Shown here: in pieces, positions 8,696-59,187 of the stretch
Layout of the letters: each line of letters starts with the position of its first letter
Position numbering within the stretch: position 1 is the first letter of the stretch
Virus record (IMG/VR): IMGVR_UViG_3300031565_000029
Span: 1 to 59,187 of that record
DNA from: a virus
Strand: one strand, 5' to 3'
Length of the DNA stretch: 59,187 nucleotides
Made by a program: the position numbers and the translations under genes
Notes under the pieces: model-generated
The model's input: only the letters and a program-made list of their open reading frames with translations
The model's database searches: none
Told to the model about the DNA's origin: nothing

Positions 8696-8716
8696 CCCTT
8701 ACTTATAACTGTTACT

Positions 8717-8733: not shown

Positions 8734-8752
8734 ATACTTGATAATTAGGGTG

Positions 8753-8800: not shown

Positions 8801-8829
8801 CAATAAAGTTATAAGATACCTTATATATA
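8801..8829 (+). promoter_or_regulatory. Right arm of inverted repeat; HNH promoter
   Basis: CAATAAAGTTATAAGAT is followed at once by a second TATA box, CTTATATATAATG. The second box is centred about 24 nt before the ATG at 8849, predicting a leaderless HNH transcript. Confidence 0.6.
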
Positions 8830-8848
8830 ATGATTTCGGTGCAACACC

Positions 8849-27179: not shown

Positions 27180-27593
27180 ATGGCAGCAAACTATCCCGTT
27201 GAGGGACTCATCGGACGCATAAGCTTCGGTGGAGCCGTCGTCGGACATCTACTCGGCGTAGAGTTAAGTGGAGACCGGAACACCACACAGTACCGTGCCA
27301 TGGGCACCTACGCAACCACAAGCATCCTCAAAGGACGAAGAAACTTTGAGGGAAGCGCAAAGAAAGCCTTTATTTGTGGCGACTTCCTAACACTCTTCCT
27401 GAACGACTGCACCGAGTACCAAGGCAGCTTCTTCCCACGATACGGCGTATGTGTCGGCGGAATCACCGCCTGTGGCACCATCGCAGGGACACTGGTCTTC
27501 AAAAGCTGGCGTCTCACCGGATGGGAAGCAGAAGCCGAGGCCGCGAAGATCGAGGAAATCACCTTCGACATCTATAATATAACCCAACCCTAA
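27180..27593 (+). CDS. Tube/decoration-like protein, shares a domain with a distal tail protein (137 aa)
   Basis: Residues 6-135 align along their whole length with the N-terminal half of the 54,838 protein: VEGLIGRISFGG/IEGLVGAFSVGG, KKAFICGDFLTLF/RKAFICGDFLTLF and EAAKIEEITFDIYN/EAAKIEEIEFDLYN. It is beta-rich, like tail-tube or capsid-decoration proteins. It sits just before the capsid gene, so either use is possible. Confidence 0.55.
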   Translation: MAANYPVEGLIGRISFGGAVVGHLLGVELSGDRNTTQYRAMGTYATTSILKGRRNFEGSAKKAFICGDFLTLFLNDCTEYQGSFFPRYGVCVGGITACGTIAGTLVFKSWRLTGWEAEAEAAKIEEITFDIYNITQP

Positions 27594-29067: not shown

Positions 29068-31071
29068 TTGAGTAAGAAACGAGAAATCAAATATTCAAGT
29101 AGTAAACAGTTTGTCGGTAGTGCCGATCCAGAAACCTATGGGGAAGGATACTTCCTACATGCAGAAGGTAGCAACTATGGCAGAGGCCCCTTTGCCCCAT
29201 ACGACGAGACATACCTAGTCAGAAACCGGGAACTCGCTAAACGGATAATATCCACCATACCTCGCCTAAGCTCCGTCCTTGTTCTCGGAGCGGCTCGGGG
29301 ATACCTCGTTAAAGCCTTCAGGGAACAAGGCGTAGACGCTGTCGGCGTGGATATAAGTCAATGGGCGGTAGAAAACTGCGCCGAGGGCATCGAAGACTAC
29401 ATGTACTGTGGTGACATCTGTGACCTCAGTTTATGGGAGGACAAGTCCTTCGACCTCGTAGTTGGCCTAGATGTGTTTGAACACATCACGGTTCCCGACC
29501 TTTACAAAGCAATGGATGAAGCCGTCCGCGTAGGAAAATCACTTATTCTAGATGTCCCCATCCTCCCACATGACGATGAACCCGATCAGAGTTATGGCAC
29601 CGATGCAACCCACGTCAGTTGTTACTCTAAAATGTGGTGGCTACAAGGGTTCATGGCGCGTGGGTTGGAACCCTTCGGACAGGTAAGTGAATACCTATAC
29701 CCAGAGGAACACGAAAACTCGCCGTGGCCAGATGGACACGATCACGGTGTAACAGTATGGTTCCGCACCCCCAAACCAGTTCCGACACCAGAAAACATTC
29801 CAGAGCCTAAGATCGCCCCCAACGGCAAAGACTTTAAGATCTTATGGTACGCGAATGCCCATTTCTGTGGGACTGGATACGGCGTAGGAACCGCCGGGGT
29901 CATATTCGACCTACTAAAACACTACAGTGTCAGAAACCTAGCCTTCTACGGACTAGAGGGAAAAGCACTTGGGTTCAACGAACTTGTCACGTATCCGAAG
30001 CGGTTCTGCCCATTCGGAAGCGACGCCGCCGCTCTTCTATGCAATCGCTGGAAACCAGACATACTTGTGACCTTATTCGACATCTGGATCGATGAGTCGG
30101 CAAGCCGCGTCGGTGGACCCGGGTGGCTAAGCTCTATGCACCCTCGATGGGTGCCCATCATCCCCGTTGATCATGACCCCATACCGCCCCCCACGCTTGT
30201 GCCTGCCAGAAAAGCCTATAAGCCTGTGGCGATGAGCCGTTTCGGTCAGAGGCAACTTGAAGCAAATGGCGTTCCATCAACATACATACCTCACGGTGTG
30301 GACACAACGCTGTTTAAGCCTTCACTGGATAAGGTGGCTAGCCGTCAACATCTTCACGACATTTCGGTTCCGCTTATATCTGGAAAGGAGGAACCGTGGC
30401 CTGAGGACTGCTTCGTCATCGGGAAGGTGGCGGCTAACAAGGACACTAAACGTAAAGGCTTCGACACCGACGCCCAAGCTCTGCGACTCTTCTTTGATAG
30501 CAACCCGGACGCTAGAAAGGATACGCGGGTGTTCATGCACACACTCCCACGGTTCCCCGGCGGCTTCAACATCGATCACTGGTACGACCTCTGCGGGGTC
30601 TCACAGTACGTAAAGGTCATCGACGAGTTCTTCTGGTATCAGGGACTCACCTATGAGGACATGTCAAAACTCTATGGAGGCTTCGATGTGTTGCTGAACG
30701 CTAGTAGAGCCGAAGGGTTTGGCATACCGATCATTGAAGCAGCTTCCTGCGGTGTCCCGTCGATAGGTACAAACTTTACGTCGATGCCGGAGCTAATCGG
30801 GGGACATGGGTGGCTCGTTGATAAATATGTTAGAGACCTCACCCCTGCACTGAGCTTCATAGCAGTCCCGGATGTGTATGAGTTAGCCGACCACATATCT
30901 GAAGCCTACAATAGCCCCGATAAGACCGCCCGCTACGGTGAAGCCTCAAGAGACTTTGCGTTAAACTTTGACTGGAAAAAAGTTGTTGTACCTCTCTGGA
31001 AGAATCTTATTGAGGACATCAGAGAAGAAATACGTCCAAAGACCCTGAGCGAAAGGAGGAAGATGCTATGA
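29068..31071 (+). CDS. Methyltransferase / glycosyltransferase fusion (667 aa)
   Basis: It starts with TTG after AAGGAGATG. Residues about 65-190 form a class I SAM methyltransferase (VLVLGAARG at 70-78, FDLVVGLDVFEHI). From about 255 a GT-B glycosyltransferase follows, with ILWYANAHFCGTGYGVG at its start and EAASCGVPSIGTN near residue 555 in the donor-binding domain, as in GT4. It may add and methylate a sugar on the same glycan. First gene of the island. Confidence 0.75.
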   Translation: MSKKREIKYSSSKQFVGSADPETYGEGYFLHAEGSNYGRGPFAPYDETYLVRNRELAKRIISTIPRLSSVLVLGAARGYLVKAFREQGVDAVGVDISQWAVENCAEGIEDYMYCGDICDLSLWEDKSFDLVVGLDVFEHITVPDLYKAMDEAVRVGKSLILDVPILPHDDEPDQSYGTDATHVSCYSKMWWLQGFMARGLEPFGQVSEYLYPEEHENSPWPDGHDHGVTVWFRTPKPVPTPENIPEPKIAPNGKDFKILWYANAHFCGTGYGVGTAGVIFDLLKHYSVRNLAFYGLEGKALGFNELVTYPKRFCPFGSDAAALLCNRWKPDILVTLFDIWIDESASRVGGPGWLSSMHPRWVPIIPVDHDPIPPPTLVPARKAYKPVAMSRFGQRQLEANGVPSTYIPHGVDTTLFKPSLDKVASRQHLHDISVPLISGKEEPWPEDCFVIGKVAANKDTKRKGFDTDAQALRLFFDSNPDARKDTRVFMHTLPRFPGGFNIDHWYDLCGVSQYVKVIDEFFWYQGLTYEDMSKLYGGFDVLLNASRAEGFGIPIIEAASCGVPSIGTNFTSMPELIGGHGWLVDKYVRDLTPALSFIAVPDVYELADHISEAYNSPDKTARYGEASRDFALNFDWKKVVVPLWKNLIEDIREEIRPKTLSERRKML

Positions 31072-31874
31072 GTGTCATGATAGGAGTCGCAATAAAGAAC
31101 AGCGCCGTGTGGCTCCCCCGGTTTTTATACCAACTAGATAAACTTAGTGACGTAAGCCGCGTAGTATTCATCTATGGACCAAGCCAAGACCCAACCCTTG
31201 ATATATTGAAACTATGGGAAAACGAGACTGCCCATTCAACGGAGATCATCTTAGAACCGATGATGAAAAACCCGTTATCCGCAGCCGAGATAGCGCCGCT
31301 CTACGAAGACTTCCAGAACATCATTGGAGAAGAGGGGTGGGAAGATGAAACACATTTCCTGCTCATAGACTCTGACATCATGGAAGTTCCAGATGACCTA
31401 ATTCAACGATTGAAAGAACAGGATAAGGATATCATCGCTCCCTTTGTCTGGGTTGACCGCGCAGATCCACCCCAGTTCTTTGATACACACTGTTTCAGAT
31501 TCTACAGTTATAGGTTCCATCCCTTCAGCCCGCCGGACCCCTACGATGGCAAACCGTTCGAGGTTGACAGCGTCGGCTCATGCTACATGGTGAAACGCGA
31601 AGTCTTTGAACGAGTCCCTTACGAGAACCCCCATCCACACATGAAGTTCTGTGAGAACGCGTTGAACGACGGCTACGAAGTTTGGGCACACCCTAGAATA
31701 AAGATACTGCATCTCGACGTCCAGAAAGTAGGATTAACGAAGACACCTATCGAGATACTGAGAGGGCAGGCATTCGCACCACCGCCCTTCATAAAGAAGG
31801 ATGGAACAGTTGTCGAAGAAGAAGTGTTTGCCTCAGACCTGATAAACGCCTACGTCTGGGGCACCACAGAATGA
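31068..31874 (+). CDS. GT-A type glycosyltransferase (268 aa)
   Basis: HFLLIDSDIM provides the DxD metal/nucleotide-sugar motif, and a later DSVGSCYMVKREVFERVPY matches the acceptor-side pattern of GT-A enzymes. It overlaps both neighbours by 4 nt, in a coupled operon. Confidence 0.65.
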   Translation: MSVMIGVAIKNSAVWLPRFLYQLDKLSDVSRVVFIYGPSQDPTLDILKLWENETAHSTEIILEPMMKNPLSAAEIAPLYEDFQNIIGEEGWEDETHFLLIDSDIMEVPDDLIQRLKEQDKDIIAPFVWVDRADPPQFFDTHCFRFYSYRFHPFSPPDPYDGKPFEVDSVGSCYMVKREVFERVPYENPHPHMKFCENALNDGYEVWAHPRIKILHLDVQKVGLTKTPIEILRGQAFAPPPFIKKDGTVVEEEVFASDLINAYVWGTTE

Positions 31875-32683
31875 CTGTTGAAACCATTCAAACAGTGGAT
31901 ATAGAAAACCCCCTCTACTCCGTAGTTGTTCCAATACGAGACCGATGTGGACACATGCTCCGCAACTGTCTGCGAAGCATAGAACTACAAACTCTAAAAC
32001 CCATAGAACTAATCCTAGTAGACTATGGTTCAACACCTGAGAACCACCAGAAAACATTAGATATGTTGCCGCCATGCACCGTGTACCGATGCGAAACAGA
32101 TGAACCGTGGAACCTCTCCACCGCCCGTAACATCGGGTTACGAAGATCATGCGCCAAACATGCATGCGTTCTAGACGGCGACCTAATAATGGAGCCACGC
32201 GTACTAGAATCAGCCCTCCAAATACATAACGACTATCCCCCATGCTATATCACCACCCACGTCATATTGCTTAGCCCTAACGCAATAACAAGCAAAGTAA
32301 TAGAGTTACCCCGTGACTATGATGAACTAGTTAGAGCGCCATTCATCAAACGTGCCGAAGGTTGGGGCGGATTCACGAGTGCACCGACCTCATGGTGGTA
32401 CGAGTGTCAGGGTTTCGACGAACGAATGAAGTGGTGGGGTTGGGAGGACGTGGATATGTGGAAACGGGTAGCGCGAGCAGGACTCGCTCGCAACCGTTTG
32501 CAAAGCATAATGTACCCTGACAGCGAAACCTATCATCAATACCACGTTAACGCCCAGGTTGTCGCCATGAAGCAACAACAGATAGAGATATATAAAGCCA
32601 TAACCACCAACGAACACTATGCGAAACACAGCAGAGGAGTCACTCGTAACGACGAGAATTGGGGGCTATGGCGTGAAGATTAG
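31871..32683 (+). CDS. Family 2 glycosyltransferase (270 aa)
   Basis: The N-terminus is a typical GT2 start (YSVVVPIRDRCGHMLRNCLRSI, ILVDYGSTPEN) with the DGD motif in VLDGDLIMEP. The C-terminal FDERMKWWGWEDVDMWKRV is the ED-containing acceptor motif. It is closely related to the proteins at 35,365 and 36,152. Confidence 0.85.
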   Translation: MTVETIQTVDIENPLYSVVVPIRDRCGHMLRNCLRSIELQTLKPIELILVDYGSTPENHQKTLDMLPPCTVYRCETDEPWNLSTARNIGLRRSCAKHACVLDGDLIMEPRVLESALQIHNDYPPCYITTHVILLSPNAITSKVIELPRDYDELVRAPFIKRAEGWGGFTSAPTSWWYECQGFDERMKWWGWEDVDMWKRVARAGLARNRLQSIMYPDSETYHQYHVNAQVVAMKQQQIEIYKAITTNEHYAKHSRGVTRNDENWGLWRED

Positions 32684-33530
32684 TGCTGCCCTCATCGCTT
32701 GGAACGAAGCACAGACCATTGATCTAGCATTAAAGAGCATATCCAACTTTGTGGATGAAGTAATAATCGCCGACACGGGGAGTTTCGATGGCACCGTCAA
32801 GAAGGCAGAAGAGTGTCTCTCAGAATATCATATAAGTGGTGAAGTATTAAACGTTAAAGCAAACACATTGGGGCAAGCCCGCCTCGCAGCTATAGAGAAA
32901 ACTATATATGACTGGATACTACTAATAGACGCAAATCTCGTCCTTTCCGAAGCCCTAAAAAAAGAATTAGGGGAATCCCAAAAACACGGTTTTCTCGGTA
33001 TGGTTCGCAGTCTCAACCTTATGGGTGACTATGAACACTATTTTACGCCTCTTCCATTACATGATCACCATGACACCCTATTTCACAAGTCAACGGTTAC
33101 ATGGTTAAACGATCTAGATAGACCGATTCCTCTCGTTAACCGAAGACGTCTAAAACGGTGGGCGATCAACCTCAGCCGAGTTCGTCCAGCGTGGCGTAGT
33201 TGGTATCGCGGGGAACCGTTTGACCCTGATTATTATAACCCAAAAAATAGGAACCCACTTCATGAAGCCGCGACGATGGACCTATGGACGCACAACGGTA
33301 AATTTAGTTCCCTTGTTGAGTATATAGAGACAAAAAGGGGGTTATCCTTGGATGATGTTAAGAGGATAGCACCCGAATGGTATCTTAACCAACTTAACCG
33401 TTTTGCCGAACCATTGTGCCCCCAATTCAGACGAGGACTTCCAGAACCAATTATAGAAGAACAACGGACACCGCGATATAGTTTAATCTATCAAGGAGGA
33501 AAAATCATTGGCAGATACCCAACTCTCTAG
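32673..33530 (+). CDS. Family 2 glycosyltransferase (285 aa)
   Basis: A GTG at 32,673 overlaps the previous gene by 11 nt; an ATG at 32,619 would extend it in overlap. AALIAWNEAQTIDLALKSI, EVIIADTGSFDGT and LIDANLVL mark a GT2 nucleotide-sugar domain. A 69-bp stretch (32,699-32,767) is identical to one in the next gene, so the pair arose by duplication with later gene conversion or strong constraint. Confidence 0.8.
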   Translation: MKISAALIAWNEAQTIDLALKSISNFVDEVIIADTGSFDGTVKKAEECLSEYHISGEVLNVKANTLGQARLAAIEKTIYDWILLIDANLVLSEALKKELGESQKHGFLGMVRSLNLMGDYEHYFTPLPLHDHHDTLFHKSTVTWLNDLDRPIPLVNRRRLKRWAINLSRVRPAWRSWYRGEPFDPDYYNPKNRNPLHEAATMDLWTHNGKFSSLVEYIETKRGLSLDDVKRIAPEWYLNQLNRFAEPLCPQFRRGLPEPIIEEQRTPRYSLIYQGGKIIGRYPTL

Positions 33531-34389
33531 CGGTATGATCTGTTGGAACGAAGCACAGACCATTGATCTAGCATTAAAGAGCATATCCAACTTTGTGGAT
33601 GAAGTAATAATAATTGACACCGGTTCCTTTGATGGTACACAGAAAATAGCAAGAGAAACAATCGACAACCTCAACCTTAGTGGCCAAATAAAAGAAGTAA
33701 CGATAACAAAATTATTCGATGCCAGATTAAAAGCCTTCCAACTTTGTGATGGCGACTGGATGCTGATGCAGGACTCTAATCTTGTGCTATCGAATGCCTT
33801 AAAACAAGAAATGTTAGGACATATAAAACGTTCTAACGCACTCGGATGCGTAAAAAGTCTTAACTTAATGGGTGACTACGAACATCTCTTTGGCAATCGT
33901 CCCTTTATGGCTCCTCACGACATATTAATTAAATTAGAGAAAGCCACATGGGATGAAAGTGCGGATCGTCCCCACTTCATAGGAACAGTAAAAACCCTTT
34001 CTAATTGGGCCGTTAATCTTAGCCGGGTACGCCCCGCATGGAGATACTGGTTACGAGGAGAACAATTCGATAGACGCGCCTATAACGATGTAGCTAGACG
34101 ACACAGTGACGGGCATAAGAACAAATTTAACACACAGTATTCGTGGCAACGACTGGATAAATATACTTCCCCCCTAGAGTACATTGAAGTAACAAAGGGA
34201 ATGACCCTTAACGACGTTAAACAAGTGGCACCCGCATGGTTCCTGAAACAACTACGCCTTGAAGCTAGACACTTAGTCCCCGCATACAGACAGGACTTAC
34301 CAGAAGTGATTCAAGACGAATTAAAGAATCCCCGATACAAACTAATCTATGAAAACAACAAGATAACTGGAAGATGGCCAGAGCTTTGA
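33508..34389 (+). CDS. Family 2 glycosyltransferase, paralogue (293 aa)
   Basis: A TTG start has a strong AAGGAGG ribosome binding site inside the end of the previous gene. MICWNEAQTIDLALKSI and EVIIIDTGSFDGT match its neighbour, and shared WAVNLSRVRPAWRYW-type segments run through the middle. The acceptor or donor specificity may differ, as the central metal motif is MQDSNLVL here. Confidence 0.8.
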   Translation: MADTQLSSGMICWNEAQTIDLALKSISNFVDEVIIIDTGSFDGTQKIARETIDNLNLSGQIKEVTITKLFDARLKAFQLCDGDWMLMQDSNLVLSNALKQEMLGHIKRSNALGCVKSLNLMGDYEHLFGNRPFMAPHDILIKLEKATWDESADRPHFIGTVKTLSNWAVNLSRVRPAWRYWLRGEQFDRRAYNDVARRHSDGHKNKFNTQYSWQRLDKYTSPLEYIEVTKGMTLNDVKQVAPAWFLKQLRLEARHLVPAYRQDLPEVIQDELKNPRYKLIYENNKITGRWPEL

Positions 34390-35363
34390 GAATCCTTTTC
34401 CTACGCCACAAGGGACTTGACTATGTCGGTGCCCCCGGCACATACCATGACTTTGAGCAAACCGTCGGAAAGATAGCGGAGTGTAAGTGGGCTGGAAAAG
34501 AATGGCCTTTACACCGTCCAAACGAGCCGATGGACGCAACTGTTAAAAGGGTTATGCCTGACGCGGATTGGGTGATCGATACAGATGAAGGGTTCAAGGC
34601 ACCACGTGACAAAGACTACCAGGTGGGACACTTTACATCCGATCTTCACGGAAAATCTATATGTGGCGTTCATACTCCACAAGGACTCCTAGCGTTAATG
34701 AACCGCTCCAACTATGATGCTTTGTTCATGAAATATAAATACGTCTATGGTGCAAACTGTAACCCAGACATTTTCCTAACAGATATGAAGGTTCAATCAA
34801 GGTTTCTACCTTGGAGCATAGACCCAGAAAAATATCGACCAAACGGAGAAAGGAGGGTTGACGTGGCGTTTCTAGGTGCCTATGGCTCAGTCTATCCTCT
34901 ACGCAACGATCTGTGGTATGGATTGAATCCGTTTTGTCGTAGACACAACCTAAAACTGTTACTCAAACAGTCCCCCGGTGGCAGTTCATTTAAACGGTAT
35001 ATCCCAAACCTTATAGATGAGGGCCATGTTGTGGGTAGCAGATACCGAGAGGCGTTAAGGTCTACACGCATCCTAATCTTTGGTGGAAGTAGATTCCGTT
35101 ATCCCATTCAAAAATATTTCGAGGGTATGGTAAGCGGATGCCTGGTCATGGCTAACACACCAGGCGCAGCAGAGGACTTACATTTCAAAGATGGATATAA
35201 CTTTGTGGATATTAACGTTAATAACTGGAAAGATAAACTACTTTACTATGCTCAGCATAGAGATGAAGCCGAACAAATTTCAGAGCAAGGAAGAAAAACA
35301 ATAGAAAAATACCACACCCATGACATCCGAGCACAACAATTCATTCAAATGCTCGGTGACTGA
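34374..35363 (+). CDS. GT-B glycosyltransferase, CgeB-like (329 aa)
   Basis: The C-terminal half (VAFLGAYGSVYPLRNDLW, then RYPIQKYFEGMVSGCLVMAN and LHFKDGYNFVDIN) follows the spore-coat CgeB/GT1-like pattern, with the conserved E of the donor site. The N-terminal half is a diverged Rossmann domain. It likely adds a sugar in the same glycan. Confidence 0.7.
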   Translation: MARALRILFLRHKGLDYVGAPGTYHDFEQTVGKIAECKWAGKEWPLHRPNEPMDATVKRVMPDADWVIDTDEGFKAPRDKDYQVGHFTSDLHGKSICGVHTPQGLLALMNRSNYDALFMKYKYVYGANCNPDIFLTDMKVQSRFLPWSIDPEKYRPNGERRVDVAFLGAYGSVYPLRNDLWYGLNPFCRRHNLKLLLKQSPGGSSFKRYIPNLIDEGHVVGSRYREALRSTRILIFGGSRFRYPIQKYFEGMVSGCLVMANTPGAAEDLHFKDGYNFVDINVNNWKDKLLYYAQHRDEAEQISEQGRKTIEKYHTHDIRAQQFIQMLGD

Positions 35364-35364
35364 C

Positions 35365-36159
35365 ATGGCACAAAAAACGAAATTGGTTAAACGCCAGAAC
35401 ACTAAAAACCCGTTATTTTCGATAGTAATACCAATAAGAAACCGTTATGGCATCCAAGTGTGGAACTGTCTTAAAAGTCTTCAATTACAGACTTTACGCG
35501 AACTAGAAATAATAGTTGTTGACTATGGTTCCACAAAAGAAAACCATGAAAAACTAATGAATACTTTAAACTCCTTTGATTGTTCAGTTTTCTATTATGA
35601 AACAAAGGATTTATGGAGTTTAAGCGTCGCACGGAACATAGGAATTAGAAGAACACAAAGTAACTTCGTTGCAACCATTGACGTTGATTGTATCGTGGAA
35701 CCCACTGTCATAGAAGCAACATTAAAGCGGTTCCATCTTAATGAAAACTATTTTATTGTAAACCGCGTCTGTCACTGCCCCAAAGAACTAAACGTTCACT
35801 CTTTAGAATTACCAAACGACTTCAAACTACTTAGAAAAGAATGTAAATGCACTAAACGAGGCATCGGTGCCTATATTAGTGCTTCACGAGGTTGGTGGTT
35901 CAAGGTTAGAGGCTTCGATGAGCGAATAAGGGTATGGGGCACAGAGGATGATGACATTAAGAAAAGAGCTTTAGCCGATGGAAAAATAATGATTGTTTTG
36001 AGATTAGGCTCACCACCACTCTTTATTTACCATCAGTGGCACCCCCAGGTTGAACGAGGAAAAGATTTTGATTTATGGGAACAGAGAAACCTGAAAATTT
36101 TAAGAGATGATGATTCAATAGAACGGAACACTAAAAACTGGGGTTGTTTTAATGGTTAA
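35365..36159 (+). CDS. Family 2 glycosyltransferase (264 aa)
   Basis: The ATG at 35,365 directly follows the previous stop; a longer reading overlaps it. FSIVIPIRNRYGIQVWNCLKSL, IIVVDYGSTKEN, ATIDVDCIVEP (DVD motif) and FDERIRVWGTEDDD identify GT2. It is a paralogue of 31,871 and 36,152. Confidence 0.85.
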   Translation: MAQKTKLVKRQNTKNPLFSIVIPIRNRYGIQVWNCLKSLQLQTLRELEIIVVDYGSTKENHEKLMNTLNSFDCSVFYYETKDLWSLSVARNIGIRRTQSNFVATIDVDCIVEPTVIEATLKRFHLNENYFIVNRVCHCPKELNVHSLELPNDFKLLRKECKCTKRGIGAYISASRGWWFKVRGFDERIRVWGTEDDDIKKRALADGKIMIVLRLGSPPLFIYHQWHPQVERGKDFDLWEQRNLKILRDDDSIERNTKNWGCFNG

Positions 36160-36970
36160 AGTGCAGACCCTTAGACAACAGGATTTTGATGTTCCCCCCG
36201 CGATCACTATAGTAATCCCTATTAAAGATAGGTGCGGCATCAGATTACAGAACTGTCTACGAAGCATCCAAGTACAGACACACAGAGATATGGAAACCAT
36301 TATCGTTGATTATGGTTCAACCCAGAAAAACCATGAACAACTATTACAAGACCTATCCCCCTTCGACTGTACTATCTACTATTACCCAACCACGAATATA
36401 TGGAGTCCCGCCGTCTCCAAGAACATAGGAATCCGCCGTGCCCGTGGAGAATATATCGCGACACTGGACGCAGACTGCATCCTGGAGCCCCACGTCCTCG
36501 AAGCCACGTTAAATCTACACACAGAGAAGGGAATGAACTATGTGGAAACCAAGATGGCGTTTCTTCCAGAAGGATTCGACATTAACAATTTAACGTTACC
36601 AGAAGACTTTGATAAATGCCGAAAAACGCATACTCTACGAAAGCAGGGTTTCGGTTCCTACCTCTCCGTACATAGATTATGGTGGTTTGGCATCCGAGGA
36701 TGCGATGAGAGAATGCAGGGGTGGGGTGGCAACGACGATGATATACGGGATCGAGTGCGTAGAAGTGGATATAAGCGAATGATATTAAGTCAATATAACC
36801 TACCCCAAACAATGATATTCCACCAGTGGCACACCCCAACACGGGCTGCCTTTGAACAAAAATATGGTGAACCATTTAAGGAGATGTGGCGTAGAAACGT
36901 GTCAATAATAAGAAACGATAAAACAACAGTTAGAAACAAGGATAACGATAATTGGGGGGTATTTGGTTGA
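36152..36970 (+). CDS. Family 2 glycosyltransferase (272 aa)
   Basis: ITIVIPIKDRCGIRLQNCLRSI, TIIVDYGSTQKN, ATLDADCILEP (DAD) and CDERMQGWGGNDDD are the same GT2 landmarks as in its two paralogues. Three such genes in a row suggest stepwise addition of related sugars. Confidence 0.85.
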   Translation: MVKVQTLRQQDFDVPPAITIVIPIKDRCGIRLQNCLRSIQVQTHRDMETIIVDYGSTQKNHEQLLQDLSPFDCTIYYYPTTNIWSPAVSKNIGIRRARGEYIATLDADCILEPHVLEATLNLHTEKGMNYVETKMAFLPEGFDINNLTLPEDFDKCRKTHTLRKQGFGSYLSVHRLWWFGIRGCDERMQGWGGNDDDIRDRVRRSGYKRMILSQYNLPQTMIFHQWHTPTRAAFEQKYGEPFKEMWRRNVSIIRNDKTTVRNKDNDNWGVFG

Positions 36971-38007
36971 AGAAGCCAATCTGGTATTTCAGTGTTATGG
37001 GTTCCAACCGTGGCGACAAAGCAATACGGGAGGCCGTTAAAACCCAACTAAGTAAACGGGTAGATGCCCCGATAGCGTTTTTCAGTTGCAAGACAGACCT
37101 ATTGGACATGAACCGTATCAACCAGTTAAACGAAGAAGGATCAATGCTGTTAATCGCGGGTTCCGGCCTCTATTCCAACTATGACTTGGAGAGCGGCTTC
37201 TATTTTAGGTGTAATCCAGACAACTTTAAACACATAAAAGTTCCTATAGTGCTACTCAGCATAGGAATGAATAACCATTTAGAGATGGACCGATTCGGCC
37301 CACTACAACCAGACACCCTTAAAAATATAAAGGAGTTAAACCAACTAGCCTCACACACATCGACAAGAGACCATAGGACACTAAGAATGTTGTATGACCT
37401 GGGTATTGAAAAAGCAGCCTTCGTACCCGATCCAGCCATGTTCTGCCCCAAAACCGCGTTTCCATTCCAACCAAAAAATACTCGTTTAGTTGGTTTAAGT
37501 ATCGCCCAACACGCAACCATGTTAAAACATCGGCGACAGAAGATAATTGAATTATTCATCGGAGTTTGCCACGCTCTAGATGCCCGAGGTTATACCCCCA
37601 TCTTCATCAGCCACGATGCCTTAGAACACAACATATATGAAGACTTGAAAGCACAATATCCGGCTCTTCTCTATTATAGCAATGACTCGCCAAGGGAGAT
37701 GATGTCTCTATATGAGAAATGCGAGTTCACTATAGGTGTTCGCTGTCACTCAAACATCATGAGCTTTGGTTCCTGTACACCATTCATCTGTTTAGCTTAT
37801 GACCAGAAACAAGTAGAGTTCTGCAAGATAGCCGGGGTCATCCCAATCCTGTTATCTAATAACCCGGAACTTGACCAGATACTATATTATGTTGATCGTC
37901 TTCAAGAAGACTTTATACTAACAAAAAGAGATATGTCTCGCCGTTGGCTCGATCTATATAAAATCTTTGCTACCTCGATGGATGAAATCGCGAGGTTGGT
38001 AAAATAG
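36967..38007 (+). CDS. Polysaccharide pyruvyltransferase-like protein (346 aa)
   Basis: A TTG at 36,967 overlaps the previous stop (TTGA); GGGGGG lies upstream. The order WYFSVMGSNRGDKAIREA near the start, VPIVLLSIGMN, DPAMFCPK and the C-terminal FTIGVRCHSNIMSFGSCTPFI matches the CsaB/PssM pyruvyltransferase family, which adds a pyruvate ketal to sugars using phosphoenolpyruvate. It would put a negative charge on the virion glycan. Confidence 0.75.
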   Translation: MKKPIWYFSVMGSNRGDKAIREAVKTQLSKRVDAPIAFFSCKTDLLDMNRINQLNEEGSMLLIAGSGLYSNYDLESGFYFRCNPDNFKHIKVPIVLLSIGMNNHLEMDRFGPLQPDTLKNIKELNQLASHTSTRDHRTLRMLYDLGIEKAAFVPDPAMFCPKTAFPFQPKNTRLVGLSIAQHATMLKHRRQKIIELFIGVCHALDARGYTPIFISHDALEHNIYEDLKAQYPALLYYSNDSPREMMSLYEKCEFTIGVRCHSNIMSFGSCTPFICLAYDQKQVEFCKIAGVIPILLSNNPELDQILYYVDRLQEDFILTKRDMSRRWLDLYKIFATSMDEIARLVK

Positions 38008-38826
38008 GTGGAAGTATATCATAATAAATCTTTCAAGGATTTAACCACCTTCAAGATAGGGGGACCAATAAACAACCTCTACTATCCTGCAACAACCAAG
38101 GAACTAGCAACCCTATTATCGACTCGCCACAAGTTTCACATCATAGGTGCTGGAAGCAAGATTCTGGCGGGGGATGGCCCATTTGAGAACGTTATCTGCA
38201 CCCAACGACTCAACCGACTTCACTTTAAAGGAAACACATTAAGAGTCGATGCCGGGGCATACGCCCCCACAATCTCCCTTGAATGTTCAAAACGGGGATT
38301 ATCTGGGACCGAGTTTCTCATAGACATTCCAGCCACCATTGGAGGTGCGGTGTTCATGAACGCGGGTTTCATGGGGCATGATATGAGCCAAACCTGTGCC
38401 TCAGTTGAATATGTATCCTTCAATGGAAAAATAAAGGAAACCACGGATATACGTTGGGCTCGTCGATGGTGCAGTCTTCAAGGGGTAGGTGTGATCACCT
38501 CAGTTACGTTGAATCTAACCCCCGAGGATACCGATAAAATAATGGCACGACTAGAAGAGTATCATAAAATACGGGCAACCTGTCAACCTCAAGGTATGGC
38601 GAGTGCGGGGGGTATATTCATCAACCACCGAGTCTTACCGGGTATCTTGAAGGGGTTGCCCTATTTAAGATATGGTGATGCTGAGATAGTGGAAAGGAGT
38701 CCGAACTTTATTGTTAACCACGGGTCGGCAACGTTTGGTGATGTTGTTCATCTAATTAATCTAATAGAGAAACACGCCCATGTTCTCGGGCTTTCCATGG
38801 ATAGAGAAATAAAAATCGTGGAGTGA
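38008..38826 (+). CDS. MurB-like FAD-dependent reductase (272 aa)
   Basis: It starts with GTG directly after the previous stop. The FAD-binding landmarks of UDP-N-acetylenolpyruvoylglucosamine reductase are present: TTFKIGGP, FHIIGAGSKIL, LIDIPATIGGAVFMNAG, and the C-terminal NFIVNHGSATFGDVVHLI with a final REIKIVE (glutamate kept). Where MurB has the proton-donating serine in a GS-x-F motif, this protein reads SAGGIFIN, with glycine. It may act on another enolpyruvyl or keto sugar. A muramate enzyme in an archaeal virus is notable. Confidence 0.75.
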   Translation: MEVYHNKSFKDLTTFKIGGPINNLYYPATTKELATLLSTRHKFHIIGAGSKILAGDGPFENVICTQRLNRLHFKGNTLRVDAGAYAPTISLECSKRGLSGTEFLIDIPATIGGAVFMNAGFMGHDMSQTCASVEYVSFNGKIKETTDIRWARRWCSLQGVGVITSVTLNLTPEDTDKIMARLEEYHKIRATCQPQGMASAGGIFINHRVLPGILKGLPYLRYGDAEIVERSPNFIVNHGSATFGDVVHLINLIEKHAHVLGLSMDREIKIVE

Positions 38827-38833
38827 TAAGTTT

Positions 38834-39778
38834 ATGGGTTGGAGAGACATTCTTTTAACCGGAACTACCGGATTCATCGGAACCGAATTGCTTCCCAAAC
38901 TAAAAGAACGAGGATACCGCGTCTTCACCCTAGAACGATACGTCACTGGACGCATGGGAAAAATCAGGAACCCATCAGACGATCTATGGTTTGCCGACCT
39001 AAAAGACGTATTCAGCCTCACAAAAGTCATCCAAAAGATACAACCAGACATCGTAATCCATCTCGGGGCAATCACCTCAGTAGAGTATTCCTATCGGCAC
39101 CCTCAAGAGGTATTGGAAACCAACTTCCTTGGAACGGTGAACCTAGCAGAACTATGTCGTCGATACGTCCCTAACTTCCAGCAATTCATCTTCGCCAGCA
39201 CCGCCGAAGTCTACGGAGTATGTGAGGAACTTAACAAAAACGAAACGTTAACCGACCTCATCCCCAATAGCCCCTATTCCGTTAGCAAATATGCAAGCGA
39301 AAAATATCTTCACTATCTCCATAAAGCATACAACTTACCCATCACAATCTTCCGCATGTTCAACAGTTATGGACGCAAACGAGACAACTTCTTCGTAGTA
39401 GAGAAAACCATCGACCAGATGCTACACGAAGAAACCTGTTACCTCGGAGACCCTGAGCCTGTAAGAGACTTCCTTCACTACAAAGACCAATTAAACGCTT
39501 ATTTAGTGGCACTTGAAAACCCAGACGCGATAGGTGAAACATTTAACGTAAGTTCAGGGATTGGTGTATCAATTAAGGAGCTTGCAGATAAAGTTGCTGA
39601 GTTAACGGAGTTCAAAGGCGACGTTGTTTGGAGAAGTATGCCTCGGCGTCCACTTGATATAATGCATCTTGTGGGATCAAACGAGAAGATACACCGGGTT
39701 CTAGATGTACCTGACCCCGTGTCTCTTGACGAAGGATTAATGAAAACAATAGATTGGTGGCGAAACATTGAAGTTTGA
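38834..39778 (+). CDS. NAD-dependent sugar epimerase/dehydratase (314 aa)
   Basis: It is an extended short-chain dehydrogenase: GTTGFIGTEL at 11-20 binds NAD, HLGAITSVEYS follows, and the catalytic YxxxK is SPYSVSKYASEKY with FRMFNSYG. It probably makes a 4-keto or epimerised nucleotide sugar that the next two enzymes use. The exact substrate (UDP-, dTDP- or GDP-sugar) cannot be told. Confidence 0.85.
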   Translation: MGWRDILLTGTTGFIGTELLPKLKERGYRVFTLERYVTGRMGKIRNPSDDLWFADLKDVFSLTKVIQKIQPDIVIHLGAITSVEYSYRHPQEVLETNFLGTVNLAELCRRYVPNFQQFIFASTAEVYGVCEELNKNETLTDLIPNSPYSVSKYASEKYLHYLHKAYNLPITIFRMFNSYGRKRDNFFVVEKTIDQMLHEETCYLGDPEPVRDFLHYKDQLNAYLVALENPDAIGETFNVSSGIGVSIKELADKVAELTEFKGDVVWRSMPRRPLDIMHLVGSNEKIHRVLDVPDPVSLDEGLMKTIDWWRNIEV

Positions 39779-40148
39779 GAAAATTCATGGGGATAATCGT
39801 GGAGAAATCTATCTAGTTTTAGATGCTCTCCAAGAGGGACGAGAACTAACTCTTTTTACAACCAGAAAAGGATATGCCCGTGGCGGGTGTATCCATAAAA
39901 AAAGCGGTGAAAGCTGCGTTGTCATTAAAGGTGAAATCAAGTACTGGATAGGTGACAATGAACCGATTATTATGTCTCGTGGAGATACCTGTTATATTGA
40001 AGCTGGTGTGCCTCATTACTTTGTTGCGTTAACGGAGGAAACCGTTGTGATGGAGTGGGGTGCGCTGCCAGAGGAAAAGAAGGAAAAGTATCCACCATCA
40101 CGATTCATAGTCGATATCATCAACAAAAGAAGGAGTGGCGTAAGATGA
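39768..40148 (+). CDS. Cupin sugar 3,4-ketoisomerase-like (126 aa)
   Basis: It starts with TTG inside the end of the epimerase gene. A single cupin domain shows GGCIHKKSGESCVVIKGEIKYW, GDTCYIEAGVPHYF and the usual spacing of metal or substrate histidines, as in FdtA/WxcM-type enzymes that move the keto group before amination. It is translationally coupled to its neighbours. Confidence 0.65.
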   Translation: MKFEKIHGDNRGEIYLVLDALQEGRELTLFTTRKGYARGGCIHKKSGESCVVIKGEIKYWIGDNEPIIMSRGDTCYIEAGVPHYFVALTEETVVMEWGALPEEKKEKYPPSRFIVDIINKRRSGVR

Positions 40149-40681
40149 AGTTTAGAATAAAACAGCACCCAGATTCTGGACCATTCTCCTATGAATGGTA
40201 TAATAACCTATATGATAAAATAGATTACACTGACCAAATTGTACTAGACCTCGGGGCAGATTGGGGAAGAACACCCGATCTTTTCCTTCAAAAAGGAGCG
40301 AAAAAAGTTATAGCCGTAGAAGGCAAGAAAGAATGGTATGACCTTCTAGAGGAGAACTCGAAAATAATAGAAGGCATTATACCTATTTTCATGTGGCTAG
40401 AGAATCCCAGTGACATATCAAATCTTATTAAAAAATATAAACCAGACATCGTAAAGATCGCAACGCGGCCTTGGTGTTCATGTGAAAACTGGCTTCTAGA
40501 TATACCAGTAGATATAATTACATCGGTCTCTAAATATGTCTTATTGACTTCACAAAGGAAAGAACAAAAAGTAAAGATAGAGAAAATAGAAAACCTGTTT
40601 AGAAATCTTAGTTACGATGTAAACATAAAAATGCATCATGTTCCCGTTATAACAGCGGTTTCACAGAGAACAAAACTATGA
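40145..40681 (+). CDS. SAM-dependent methyltransferase, FkbM-like (178 aa)
   Basis: The ATG at 40,145 overlaps the previous stop. IVLDLGADWGRTPDLFLQKGAKKVIAVEGK is a clear class I SAM-binding motif with the acidic residue of motif II. The short length suits a sugar O- or N-methyltransferase. Confidence 0.65.
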   Translation: MKFRIKQHPDSGPFSYEWYNNLYDKIDYTDQIVLDLGADWGRTPDLFLQKGAKKVIAVEGKKEWYDLLEENSKIIEGIIPIFMWLENPSDISNLIKKYKPDIVKIATRPWCSCENWLLDIPVDIITSVSKYVLLTSQRKEQKVKIEKIENLFRNLSYDVNIKMHHVPVITAVSQRTKL

Positions 40682-41781
40682 TACCCCTATTTTCACCCTT
40701 CATCCCACCCGAAGCTGGAGACGCCGTAAAGCAAGTCATTGACTCAGGGTGGATAAACACAGGACCAAAAGAACAACTATTTAGAGAACGTTTACAGGAA
40801 AAATTTGGGTTCCCACATTGTGTGGCAACAAGTTCCTGCACAGGATCACTAAGAGCCTCATTAGCCACGTTAGGCATTACCTGTGGAGACGAAGTGATAA
40901 CGACACCGTGGACAATGATCGCTACAAACACCGTCATCTTGGAACAAGGCGCTACACCGATATTCGCCGACATTGAGTATGATACACTGAACATCGACCC
41001 AGAGGACGTTGTACGGAAGATAACGGATAAGACGAAAGCCATTATGTGCGTCCATTATGCGGGGGCACCCTGTAACTTAGATGCGTTAAGAAAAATAGCT
41101 AAGGATAATGACCTAACGCTTGTTGAGGACGCGGCACAGGCGTTAGGAGCCAAGTACCACAATAAATATGTTGGGGCAACAGGTAAACTAGTTAACTTCT
41201 CGTTTCAAGCCATAAAGACCATAACGTCAGGGGACGGAGGCGTAATAGCCACCGACAGCGAAAAACTCTACGAGGAACTTCAAACCCGCGTCTGGTTTGG
41301 CATCGACAAAAAGCGGAGACAGAAAACCGTGTTAGGTCCACTCCCTCACGATGTTGAGGTGCTTGGATTCAAATACAATATGAACGACATCGCCGCCGCC
41401 CTTGGCTTAGTTGGACTAGATCACTTTGATGAATCATTAGCAAAGCGTAAGGCAGTTGCACAGCATTACCGAGACGAACTTCAAAACCTTAATGATATAA
41501 CATTATTGAATTATCCCACTAACATAGAATCCGCATGCTGGATGTTCCCAATCCATGTGAAAAACCGGTTACAGTTCGCAGAGTATATGCGGCGTAACGG
41601 TGTAGAGGTAAGCGTCCACTATCCACGAAACGACGGCTACACGATATTCGGTGGCAAACAAGACCTTCCAGTAACTAAACAAGTGGATGCCGATATCATC
41701 CATATCCCGATACACGCCAACCTGTCAGAACAACAGGTGGCACAAGTCATAGATGTGGTGCGTGGTTGGCATGGTTATTAA
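40678..41781 (+). CDS. DegT/DnrJ/EryC1 sugar aminotransferase (367 aa)
   Basis: It has the family's landmarks: SGWINTGPKEQLFRERL at the start, CVATSSCTGSL, the PLP-lysine segment FQAIKTITSGDGGVI, and a C-terminal SVHYPRN-type motif. It would transfer an amino group to a keto-sugar nucleotide made by the epimerase and cupin isomerase upstream. Length is normal. Confidence 0.88.
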   Translation: MIPLFSPFIPPEAGDAVKQVIDSGWINTGPKEQLFRERLQEKFGFPHCVATSSCTGSLRASLATLGITCGDEVITTPWTMIATNTVILEQGATPIFADIEYDTLNIDPEDVVRKITDKTKAIMCVHYAGAPCNLDALRKIAKDNDLTLVEDAAQALGAKYHNKYVGATGKLVNFSFQAIKTITSGDGGVIATDSEKLYEELQTRVWFGIDKKRRQKTVLGPLPHDVEVLGFKYNMNDIAAALGLVGLDHFDESLAKRKAVAQHYRDELQNLNDITLLNYPTNIESACWMFPIHVKNRLQFAEYMRRNGVEVSVHYPRNDGYTIFGGKQDLPVTKQVDADIIHIPIHANLSEQQVAQVIDVVRGWHGY

Positions 41782-42676
41782 AGTCTACAGCATAGCAAGC
41801 TGGGATGTCTGTGACCTCTACGGGGAACCCACCACCGAATATCAGCGACAACTAAGGTTCTCACCAGAAGGAGATGGGCGCTGGGGCAACATCCAGATCG
41901 TAGATAACTTTGACGAAGCCGACATTTACGTTCAGTTCTGGCCTGACAAGACGGGGCAACGGCACAAGTGTCCACCAGGAACAGTCATAAACTTGATGCG
42001 AGAGGCAACCCACTGTATTCCGAAGCCTAGTAGGATTGGACGCGAGACACTTTACAGTCGGTGGGTATCGATGGATCATAACCCGCAGGGCTGGTGGATC
42101 GGTAAAACCTATAAAGAACTAGCGTCAAACGACTTTCCACAAAAAACCAAGACGTTGTCCTATGTCACTTCGGGCAGACAGTTTCTACGAGGACATAAAC
42201 TACGCCTTCAGTTTACCACAAAGTTCGCACAGACTTATCCTGGTGTTCTAGACTTATATGGGAAAAACATTGGCGGCTACAACCTCGCTAGAATTAAGGG
42301 ATATAAGGGGAACGTTAAAGATAAGTGGGATGGGCTCGCACCGTATCGATACTCGTTCGCGTTTAACAATATCTACGAGAAAAACTATTTCGACGAAAAA
42401 CTGGGGGACGTCATATTGGCTGGGTGTACGCCCATCTTCTATGGGTGCCCTAACATCGGAGACTTCTTCCCAGAGGGGTCATACTATTATTTAGATATTA
42501 CCAAACCGGGAGCCGTAAAGGAAGCTTTTGATGTTATCAATAGTGATTATAGAGAAGAGAATCTCGACGCACTGAAGAAGGCTAAGGATTTATGGCTTAA
42601 CAAATACAGTCTTCAACCAACGGTTCATAAAATAGTGAATGAGTTAATAGAAGCAGGTAAACTAAACCTAAAGTAG
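41771..42676 (+). CDS. GT10 (fucosyltransferase-like) glycosyltransferase (301 aa)
   Basis: The ATG at 41,771 overlaps the previous gene by 11 nt. The C-terminal YRYSFAFNNIYEKNYFDEKLGDVILAG and CTPIFYGCPNIGDFFP match the GT10 alpha-1,3-fucosyltransferase motif (the F-x-F-x4-N and EKL-x8-AG pattern). It closes the glycan island. Confidence 0.65.
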   Translation: MVIKVYSIASWDVCDLYGEPTTEYQRQLRFSPEGDGRWGNIQIVDNFDEADIYVQFWPDKTGQRHKCPPGTVINLMREATHCIPKPSRIGRETLYSRWVSMDHNPQGWWIGKTYKELASNDFPQKTKTLSYVTSGRQFLRGHKLRLQFTTKFAQTYPGVLDLYGKNIGGYNLARIKGYKGNVKDKWDGLAPYRYSFAFNNIYEKNYFDEKLGDVILAGCTPIFYGCPNIGDFFPEGSYYYLDITKPGAVKEAFDVINSDYREENLDALKKAKDLWLNKYSLQPTVHKIVNELIEAGKLNLK

Positions 42677-42695
42677 ATTGTAATCCATAAGAGTG

Positions 42696-42715
42696 CCTAG
42701 AGAGGCACTAGGAGA
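42696..42715 (+). other. Hairpin between the glycan island and the connector gene
   Basis: GTGCCT and AGGCAC form a perfect 6-bp stem with a 4-nt loop, followed by AGGAGATG, the ribosome binding site of the next gene. It could be a weak terminator or a translation control hairpin. Confidence 0.35.
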
Positions 42716-42724
42716 TGTAAAAAA

Positions 42725-43378
42725 ATGGCAGTTAGATACTGTTCGGCGTTCGATGTCGCAATCTTCGGTCAAGTTGAGTATCAGCAGATAGGCTTCGCAA
42801 GTCTCGCAGATTACACCAACTGGGTACACGGCACCCTCATATATAAAGCCATGGACTTCGTCGACAACTATTGCCGACACAACTTCCAAGACAACACGGG
42901 TACAATCTACGTCGACGGCAGATGTAGGGAAACCGTGCACGTAACATCCTCTGGCGTAGTGACGAGGTGGCCTGACTCATATCCCGAGTTCCCAATAGGG
43001 TTAATGCCCATCCCGCTTATGAGGGTCACGGGTATCAGCATCGACGGCGTCGCCCAGACACTTAGCAACTTCCGTAGCTATAACACCCATGTCGCCTATA
43101 GGTGGGGAGGGGCTTTCAACGAGGGGCGGCAGAACGTCATGATAACCGCTAGATTTGGGTATGGTACTGTTCCACATGATATACAATACGTTACGGCTCA
43201 GTTATGCAGTAACATGTTAGCGGACATGGTGAGGCGTCGAATGGTTGTCGACCTCGTTACACCCATCATGGAAGGCGGGGGAGATGTCGGCATATTATTC
43301 AGGTCTCCAAAGGTGTTGACGGAAAACGAAAAAAGTATTTTAAACAAATATAGATATCATTCAGCGGAGATAACATAG
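42725..43378 (+). CDS. Head-tail connector protein (217 aa)
   Basis: Position after head genes, length near 200 and the helical core (VTAQLCSNMLADMVRRRMV) with a beta insert fit a gp6/gp15-type connector that binds under the portal. The start has an AGGAG. The family link is by context and pattern, not by a diagnostic motif. Confidence 0.55.
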   Translation: MAVRYCSAFDVAIFGQVEYQQIGFASLADYTNWVHGTLIYKAMDFVDNYCRHNFQDNTGTIYVDGRCRETVHVTSSGVVTRWPDSYPEFPIGLMPIPLMRVTGISIDGVAQTLSNFRSYNTHVAYRWGGAFNEGRQNVMITARFGYGTVPHDIQYVTAQLCSNMLADMVRRRMVVDLVTPIMEGGGDVGILFRSPKVLTENEKSILNKYRYHSAEIT

Positions 43379-51720: not shown

Positions 51721-52434
51721 TTGGACAATAGAACTCTAGTTAGTAATGAACATAGAGTAATAATGAAAATGGACTACATCAACGGAGATTGTGCAAGAGT
51801 AATAGGTGAAAAGTTAAACTATCCATATTGGACGGTTTTGAAACATCTTAAAAGCATGAACGTCGACATCAGAAGCGACCACGCTAAGCAAGTTGATTTT
51901 TCTAAAAAAGAAACTTTGGCATATATAGAAGGCGTTCTTTGCGGTGATGGGTGGGCATATAATAACAAAAAAACATCTCGGTATCACATTGGCATCGATG
52001 CTATTGATAAGGACTTTGTAACAAAATTTAAAAATAGTTTAGAGGACGTTGGTTTAAAAATATGGTTTGGTCAATCTAAAGATAACTGTTGGAGGGCGTT
52101 AGGCAACTCAAAAAGATTGTATATATGGCATAATGAACTACCATACAAAAACTTTAAATCTAATGAAGAAAAGATAGCATTTTTAGAAGGCTTTTATGAA
52201 TCTGATGGGACGAGCGACATACGGAACGTAGTTTATTGTAATACAGATAAAACTCTTTTAGACACAACGCGAAGATATTTAGATGATTTGAATATAGAAA
52301 CCACTTTAACTGGACCATATAAAAACAATTATGACTCCTTATATTATTTTCTTAGAATAAGTAGTGCCAGCTTAGGTAGGTTTATGAGACTAATTAAACC
52401 AGTTAATAAATTCAATAAAGGTGGGATGAAATGA
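51721..52434 (+). CDS. LAGLIDADG homing endonuclease (237 aa)
   Basis: Two LAGLIDADG-type helices are present: LAYIEGVLCGDGWA (about 61-74) and IAFLEGFYESDGTS (about 155-168), each ending in the catalytic acidic residue. An N-terminal helix-turn-helix (GEKLNYPYWTVLKHLKSM) precedes them. It starts with TTG and is much more AT-rich than its neighbours. It is a free-standing mobile element in the tail module. Confidence 0.85.
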   Translation: MDNRTLVSNEHRVIMKMDYINGDCARVIGEKLNYPYWTVLKHLKSMNVDIRSDHAKQVDFSKKETLAYIEGVLCGDGWAYNNKKTSRYHIGIDAIDKDFVTKFKNSLEDVGLKIWFGQSKDNCWRALGNSKRLYIWHNELPYKNFKSNEEKIAFLEGFYESDGTSDIRNVVYCNTDKTLLDTTRRYLDDLNIETTLTGPYKNNYDSLYYFLRISSASLGRFMRLIKPVNKFNKGGMK

Positions 52435-54837: not shown

Positions 54838-55680
54838 ATGAGCACCCCAGATGACCCCATAGAAGGACTCGTCGGCGCATTCAGCGTCGGCGGAACCTTC
54901 ATAGGGCACCTTCTAGGAGTAACCATCCGAGGCAGACGCTTAACCCAGCAGATACGTAACATCGGGAACATAGAAGCAAATAAGATACTTGTAGGAAAAG
55001 TAGATTTCGACGGCGACTCCCGGAAAGCCTTCATATGCGGCGACTTCCTGACATTGTTCAGGGAGAACGTAGCCCACGGAAACGATTTCAGCGGAACCTT
55101 CTACCCCAGAGGACTTCTCGGCTGCGGAACCATATGGGGAAACCTAGTCTTCAAACGATGGAGACTGGAGAACTGGGACGCCGAAAGCGAAGCCGCAAAG
55201 ATAGAGGAAATAGAGTTCGACTTATACAACGTAACAATGGTGAGCGCATTGACAAAAGAATTATGGTTCGGAGTAACAGAACCCGACGGAATCATAGGCA
55301 AACACCCAGCCATCATCCTCACGGATGGGATTGATGTGACGGTCTACGCCCAGATATACATACCGTTCGACTTCACGGCATTAACGTCAGCATACGTGAT
55401 AATTGTGGCGGGGGGGACTGGCAACCTTCGGCGAAGCGTCAGCAGCAACTTCGGCGTACTATGTGGCGCGGAGAACTATAACGCCCACATGGAAGGCATC
55501 GCCGTCGGTCAGGTCGCCGTCACAGCGAGCCGCCTAACCTGTATAGACATAAGCGCCGCGTTGATAGGGCTCGGGGCAAGCGACTTGGTGGGATTAACGT
55601 TCCTCCGGGAAGCAAGCAACGTTAACGACACGGTTAACGAGGATTGTTATTACCTTGGAATCAGAGTGAGGTACACCTAA
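54838..55680 (+). CDS. Two-domain tail protein sharing its N-terminus with the pre-capsid protein (280 aa)
   Basis: Residues 1-138 match the 27,180 protein. Residues about 145-280 (IILTDGIDVTVYAQIYIPFDF, LTCIDISAALIGLGASDLVGL) match the second half of the next protein. It is thus a fusion of a tube/decoration-like unit with a fibre-type unit, and starts directly at the previous stop. Confidence 0.6.
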   Translation: MSTPDDPIEGLVGAFSVGGTFIGHLLGVTIRGRRLTQQIRNIGNIEANKILVGKVDFDGDSRKAFICGDFLTLFRENVAHGNDFSGTFYPRGLLGCGTIWGNLVFKRWRLENWDAESEAAKIEEIEFDLYNVTMVSALTKELWFGVTEPDGIIGKHPAIILTDGIDVTVYAQIYIPFDFTALTSAYVIIVAGGTGNLRRSVSSNFGVLCGAENYNAHMEGIAVGQVAVTASRLTCIDISAALIGLGASDLVGLTFLREASNVNDTVNEDCYYLGIRVRYT

Positions 55681-58153: not shown

Positions 58154-58176
58154 TGATAGTTTGCCCTGAAGTATCA
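58154..58176 (+). promoter_or_regulatory. 23-bp dyad element, copy 30
   Basis: The halves are TGATAGTT and AAGTATCA. It lies in the non-coding end region, 53 nt from the end of the small RNA at 58,230. Confidence 0.65.
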
Positions 58177-58229
58177 TAAACTTTTTATTCATCTATCCTA
58201 GACATCAGATGATACTTTGGTAACTAATG

Positions 58230-58402
58230 AAAAAAACTTGGAGGAAAGTCCCGCCACCCGACGGAGGGACATCCGTGCCACCTCTCCCGGTGTAGCGAGG
58301 TAGACTTATCGGTTCTTAAAACCGTGCCGTCACACGTTTCAACGATCTACCACTAAGGGAGTTGTCGTCTCACATCTTGGGCGGTCTCGGTTTCCTCCAA
58401 AA
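58230..58402 (-). ncRNA. Structured small RNA of unknown family
   Basis: A perfect 10-bp closing stem (58,238-58,247 with 58,391-58,400) encloses nested helices: 58,251-255/380-384, 58,284-288/357-361, 58,299-304/346-351, and hairpins at 58,261-276 and 58,310-324. On the minus strand a TATA box at 58,421-58,430 lies about 25 nt before the first stem base, and a run of seven U follows the last one. This is a complete small transcription unit. The plus-strand reading contains GGAGGAAAGTCC, identical to a conserved block of RNase P RNA, but the rest does not fit that RNA. Function is unknown. Confidence 0.6.
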
Positions 58403-58420
58403 CAAGGATGCCTTATCTCA

Positions 58421-58430
58421 TATATAAGTT
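58421..58430 (-). promoter_or_regulatory. Promoter of the small RNA
   Basis: The minus strand reads AACTTATATATGAG, a near-ideal archaeal TATA box, centred about 25 nt from the first base of the RNA stem. Confidence 0.6.
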
Positions 58431-58633
58431 TTCCTATAGAACGTTTGTTCGGTATATCGGTTCCGATTTATGTAGAAAACACAATTCTATAAAAACATTG
58501 AAGTTATAGACAGAATTTAGATCATCCCCGTCGTTTCACGCAATGTTCTTAAGGTAACAGAAATCGTTACCATAGTTACACGAAGTATAGAAAAACGGAA
58601 GTAGTATATATATTACTTTAGAAAAATGGTATG
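58431..58633. other. AT-rich gap without recognised genes
   Basis: No convincing reading frame is present. It contains a GTAAC/GTTAC hairpin near 58,554-58,571 and a palindromic TATA-like block near 58,603-58,617. No other signal was seen. Confidence 0.3.
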
Positions 58634-58880
58634 TAAAAAAAGTTTAACGGTTCTAGGTTGAATATACCAAAGTTAACCGCATTGACATAAAATAGATATC
58701 ACATGACACGTTTTTTATACGGGTTTATCTATACATTCACTTTGTTGCCAAAACTATATTACCGTTTCAGGTAAAGTAGTTGAAATGGTTTACCAGATCA
58801 AGCAATTCTTCGCCGTTCGATGAAAACATGAACATCCCACCCACATAGGATGTTTAGCTAAACCACAGAGTTTATTTTAC
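58634..58880 (-). ncRNA. Possible second small RNA
   Basis: A minus-strand TATA box at 58,901-58,910 and a run of seven U at 58,635-58,641 bracket about 245 nt without a reading frame. Inside are paired segments GGTTTA/TAAACC (58,788-58,793 with 58,859-58,864) enclosing a 7-bp hairpin AACATCC/GGATGTT (58,831-58,837 with 58,848-58,854). The fold is looser than that of the first RNA. Confidence 0.3.
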
Positions 58881-58900
58881 TCACATCTCAATCCGAGTTA

Positions 58901-58910
58901 GTATATAAAG
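58901..58910 (-). promoter_or_regulatory. TATA box upstream of the possible second RNA
   Basis: The minus strand reads CTTTATATAC, with a predicted start near 58,880. It lies about 40 nt past the tRNA 3' end. Confidence 0.45.
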
Positions 58911-58922
58911 GGTTGCGATATA

Positions 58923-58950: not shown

Positions 58951-59025
58951 TGGGTTCGGGCAGATTTGAACTGCCGTTCTCACGGTTCCAGGCCGCGAAT
59001 GTTGACCAAGCTACACCACGAACCC
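58951..59025 (-). tRNA. tRNA-Pro (anticodon UGG)
   Basis: A full cloverleaf can be drawn on the minus strand. The acceptor stem is GGGTTCG/CGAACCC with discriminator A, the D-arm has GTGT/ACAT, the anticodon stem is CGCGG/CCGTG with loop CCTGGAA, and the T-arm is GGCAG-TTCAAAT-CTGCC. The anticodon reads UGG. Position 33 is C where U is nearly universal. CCA is not encoded and no intron is seen. It may supply a codon used heavily by the virus or resist host tRNA cleavage. Confidence 0.85.
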
Positions 59026-59138
59026 ATTTGAACGCATGGGGGAGTGGCTTTCCCCCATAGGGTCATCACGCACATTTAACCTCCTTAGTTAAGGGAGGCA
59101 CCCACATGAGCCACGGGCTGCGGTTTCCTATCCCTGCA
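59026..59138 (-). ncRNA. Structured leader of the tRNA transcript
   Basis: Between the TATA box at 59,159-59,168 and the tRNA lies about 112 nt with two clear hairpins: ATGGGGGA/TCCCCCAT (59,036-59,043 with 59,051-59,058) and a 7-bp stem at 59,080-59,098. A C-box-like GTGATGA reads at 59,063-59,069 on the minus strand, but no D box is seen. It may carry its own small RNA. Confidence 0.35.
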
Positions 59139-59158
59139 AACATATCGGTAACTCATCT

Positions 59159-59168
59159 AGTATATAAG
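59159..59168 (-). promoter_or_regulatory. Promoter of the tRNA unit
   Basis: The minus strand reads GACTTATATACTAG, with a predicted start near 59,138. If the window is circular this box lies inside the coding end of the gene that begins at 144. Confidence 0.5.
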
Positions 59169-59187
59169 TCTTACCTACACACCATTT

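Follow-up and report, generated by a model that had tools for sequence, protein, structure and literature searches.

Positions 58230-58430 of this viral DNA raise the question of whether they hold a complete RNA gene, self-contained in having a promoter, a folded product and a terminator of its own, as the original prediction proposed. The window, meaning the whole stretch analysed, spans 59,187 bases, comes from IMG/VR as a virus record and lacks a terminal repeat. Its genes include those for a terminase large subunit and a portal, together with a tape-measure match, and its promoters carry TATA boxes of the archaeal type, features that together make a tailed virus of an archaeon the likely identity. 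A search of genome contigs for the host, by major capsid protein and tRNA-Pro pattern, gave no match. The window also encodes a stand-alone Cas4-like nuclease (3271-3930); Cas4 is present in some Bathyarchaeia viruses (PMC10848311), and the gene is a weak hint to the kind of host. Elsewhere we noted a LAGLIDADG-type gene (51721-52434), two proteins with a common domain (27180-27593 and 54838-55680) that both match the same gene in relatives, and, within the structural gene region, a long series of glycosyltransferase-like and sugar-nucleotide-like genes, several of them paralogous (29068-43000).

Inspection of the locus confirmed its coordinates and established the minus strand as the one on which it reads as a gene (Table 1). 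The perfect 10-bp closing stem, the TATA box and the U7 tract of the original prediction are all present. Read directly from the sequence, the stem pairs 58391-58400 with 58238-58247 and is lengthened beyond 10 bp by a U58401-G58237 wobble; the U7 tract begins one base past its 3′ arm, and the TATA box lies 27 nt upstream of the stem. From the TATA distance, the RNA would start near 58403. We then asked how often this arrangement arises, using a filter that asked for three things: a perfect stem with 10 bp or more and four or more G/C, a T5 tract within 4 nt of the end of the stem, and a TATA box 12-38 nt upstream. The filter selected one site in the window, the RNA gene, and none in shuffled sequence (200 versions of the whole window, 5,000 of the noncoding region), counts that serve as a guide and not as a p-value, the filter having been devised after the feature was known. 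A stem with T5 and no TATA box occurred at a mean of 0.185 per shuffled window. A looser version of the filter returned no second site in the window and none in eight related virus records. Stem, TATA box and U tract occur together at a single place in the window and in no shuffle, an above-chance architecture that argues for an RNA gene.

Table 1 Features of the RNA gene and the adjoining tRNA gene
Feature	Sequence	Position	Strand	Basis
Predicted structured noncoding RNA, ~170 nt		58236..58403	minus	fold z, G+C contrast, no ORF of at least 60 aa, no Rfam match
TATA box	TTATATAT	58420..58427 (58427-58420)	minus	matrix rank 6th, just behind training sites
Closing stem, 5′ arm	TTGGAGGAAA	58391..58400 (58400-58391)	minus	sequence and pair probabilities 0.68-1.0
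Closing stem, 3′ arm	TTTCCTCCAA	58238..58247 (58247-58238)	minus	sequence and pair probabilities 0.68-1.0
Predicted terminator	U7 tract	58230..58236	minus	sequence and shuffle control
tRNA-Pro (TGG)		58951..59025	minus	ARAGORN; Rfam tRNA 55.4 bits
tRNA-Pro upstream promoter		59152..59172	minus	repeat search and matrix rank 7

The promoter agrees with those that the virus uses for other genes. A weight matrix built from five protein-gene promoters of the window, chosen by a TATA regular expression, ranked the RNA-gene promoter as the top non-training site (sixth of all positions), with the tRNA-Pro promoter seventh. Directly upstream of the RNA-gene TATA box lies an A-rich, BRE-like stretch (58428-58434), and by inspection AAAACTTATATA at the RNA gene agrees with RAAANNTWWWWA, the BRE/TATA consensus applied to Pyrococcus abyssi (PMC3124441). 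The RNA and tRNA-Pro promoters have in common a 21-nt stretch that is 81% identical (58412-58432 and 59152-59172). The match of the RNA promoter to protein-gene promoters of the same virus and its resemblance to the tRNA-Pro promoter both support the reading as an RNA gene.

Composition points in the same direction. The G+C content of the RNA is 0.547, close to the 0.573 of the tRNA, against 0.328 in both flanks, and the step is limited to the predicted RNA. No open reading frame of at least 60 aa overlaps the RNA. The tRNA-like G+C peak, the lack of such a frame and the lack of a match to a known family all speak for the RNA-gene reading. A 24-codon frame preceded by a Shine-Dalgarno (SD)-like sequence does overlap the 3′ part of the RNA, and this weakens the RNA-gene reading. 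Together the RNA and tRNA-Pro form a single noncoding island of about 1 kb on the minus strand, which also carries the left-arm (early-type) genes. Several other elements lie in this neighbourhood. The tRNA-Pro promoter is more than 100 nt upstream of its tRNA, and the intervening leader (59026-59142, minus) has CCTCC/GGAGG and ATGGGGG/CCCCCAT hairpins, a start-like stretch GGAGGTTAAATG and a fold z of -0.84. At 58820-58916 (minus), a TATA box near 58909 precedes a short region that contains a strong hairpin and ends T-rich (fold z -2.03), possibly a second small RNA. A TATA-like stretch near 58610, akin to the one at 58909, precedes an AT-rich region (58440-58616, minus; fold z -2.00). On the other side of the RNA gene, an inverted repeat, AAGTATCAT / ATGATACTT (58170-58220), separates it from a converging tail gene and is possibly a terminator.

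Thermodynamic folding gave the minus-strand RNA a minimum free energy of -65.3 kcal/mol and a z score of about -2.7 against shuffles (-2.77 and -2.69), compared with -1.45 for the plus-strand fold of the same region. That the minus strand beats its shuffles, and the plus strand less so, is consistent with an RNA read from the minus strand. Across the genome, 17 of 696 equally long windows scored as low or lower, placing the RNA in the lowest 2-3%. The at least four nested helices of the original prediction do appear in the minimum-energy structure; their inner pair probabilities, however, are about 0.2-0.55, the ensemble is split, and a rod-like alternative lies 2.7 kcal/mol above the minimum. 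In these models the closing stem alone is secure and the interior of the RNA folds ambiguously. Regions with lower z scores than the RNA (30 shuffles each) include 29751-29920 on the plus strand (-6.0), 15641-15810 on the plus strand (-4.8) and 8671-8840 on both strands (-5.0), the last of which spans a gap beside an HNH-like gene.

We searched for relatives of the RNA by sequence, by pattern and by covariance. No homologue was found by blastn among phages and plasmids, and the RNA was absent by blastn from 15 related virus records, many of them partial, in a set that also took in one stem-pattern match without a protein link (L026). Exact-pattern scanning of IMG/VR with the closing stem at 10 bp returned one match, L175, unrelated by inspection; with the stem at 8 bp, none of the matches listed was notable on alignment to the RNA. 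A single-sequence covariance model run over most related records recovered the RNA itself and noise at E 9.3 only. Relatives identified by the major capsid protein have mostly 58-80% identity, with a few more distant, and many of these records are fragments; protein queries from neighbouring or early genes found no relatives. The related viruses have structural genes in common with the window, and their early regions differ from it in content and strand, which suggests that the RNA may be part of an accessory module. The reading as an RNA gene is weakened by the lack of homologues in these searches, and hence of pairs to count for covariation, by a fold z that is unexceptional in the genome and by the ambiguous interior.

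The RNA could instead be a divergent copy of something familiar. Across the whole window, Rfam 15 at the gathering score matched tRNA only and gave no match to the RNA, in keeping with the original prediction, in which no known family was recognised. Relaxing the threshold to E up to 10 brought up, for the RNA region, only a snoRNA at 14.5 bits (55 needed) and RNaseP_arch at 9.1, both on the plus strand. The likeness to archaeal RNase P RNA (RF00373) consists of the 12-nt AGGAAAGUCCC block on the plus strand, already suspected of being fortuitous; we agree and reject this candidate, its 9.1 bits standing against a required 84 and the block lying on the strand without a promoter. A tRNA or tRNA-derived RNA is rejected as well: ARAGORN and Rfam report tRNA-Pro alone, and intact, intron-excised and permuted forms were all negative, with no tRNA in 2,103 rearranged versions of the RNA. 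Although the RNA has the same strand as tRNA-Pro, a similar promoter and a similar G+C peak, it differs in being a 170-nt molecule from which ARAGORN recovers no tRNA in any arrangement tried. A C/D-box guide RNA is rejected because the minus strand has neither box C (RUGAUGA) nor box D (CUGA), and an H/ACA guide because every ACA is internal, with no ACA box near the 3′ end. A highly diverged host RNA of a known family, such as RNase P, SRP or a tRNA-derived RNA, would fit the adjoining tRNA gene and the RNase P-like block; given the low score, the wrong strand, the failed tRNA searches and the missing C and D boxes, we regard it as very unlikely.

Two further explanations dispense with a stable noncoding product. 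The promoter could drive a short mRNA for a peptide of about 24 aa, the U7 tract then not being a strong terminator. The sequence does contain an ATG (58272-58270), an SD-like GAGGTGG upstream of it and a TAG stop ending at 58198, but the frame crosses the U7 tract, so that a transcript ending there would have no stop codon; about 130 nt of structured, G+C-rich leader would be left without explanation, and such short frames are common by chance. We consider this explanation unlikely. An inverted repeat and U tract might also have come to lie by accident near the promoter of something else, or the promoter might yield no stable product. This would accord with the absence of the RNA from every relative searched, with a z score merely in the lowest 2-3% of genome windows and with the occurrence of a stem and T5 without a TATA box in about one of five shuffled windows. 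Stem, TATA box and U tract jointly, however, appear in no shuffle, and the G+C step is restricted to the predicted RNA, leaving coincidence similarly improbable.

We therefore return to the RNA-gene reading and think it likely that the locus is an orphan, virus-encoded gene for a small structured noncoding RNA on the minus strand, with promoter and terminator signals of its own. The self-contained gene originally proposed is well supported by the promoter match, the G+C contrast, the architecture and the lack of an Rfam match, whereas its transcription, its particular inner helices and any conservation are predicted only; we infer from the sequence that the locus is transcribed, that termination follows and that the RNA is noncoding. 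The host's archaeal-type transcription machinery would initiate at the gene's own BRE/TATA promoter, near 58403, and halt at the U7 tract (58236-58230), releasing a stable product some 170 nt long with its ends paired in a stem of 10-11 bp. Its likeliest action would be in trans: with its ends so protected, the RNA might bind a protein or RNP of the host, as a decoy or scaffold. This trans-acting, host-protein-binding role is a guess drawn by analogy, and a doubtful one. Two 11-nt complementary stretches, where about four are expected, speak against the RNA acting as an antisense to viral genes.

The analogy is with adenovirus VA RNA and the EBERs of Epstein-Barr virus, small structured viral RNAs that are likewise made from a promoter of their own, with paired ends and a terminal U tract. 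Those RNAs are transcribed by the eukaryotic RNA polymerase III, their promoters having internal elements, whereas the promoter here is an archaeal-type TATA; the likeness is drawn by analogy only. In a literature search that was not exhaustive, we found no tailed archaeal virus described as having a structured noncoding RNA. It is a long shot that the locus represents a new class of trans-acting structured RNA, made by a tailed archaeal virus from a promoter resembling that of the viral tRNA, that occupies or redirects an RNA-binding protein or a defence system of the host. The RNA gene is probably real and ordinary in kind, a single orphan locus with good signals. If expressed, it would offer a compact case for asking how tailed archaeal viruses use RNA in their hosts.
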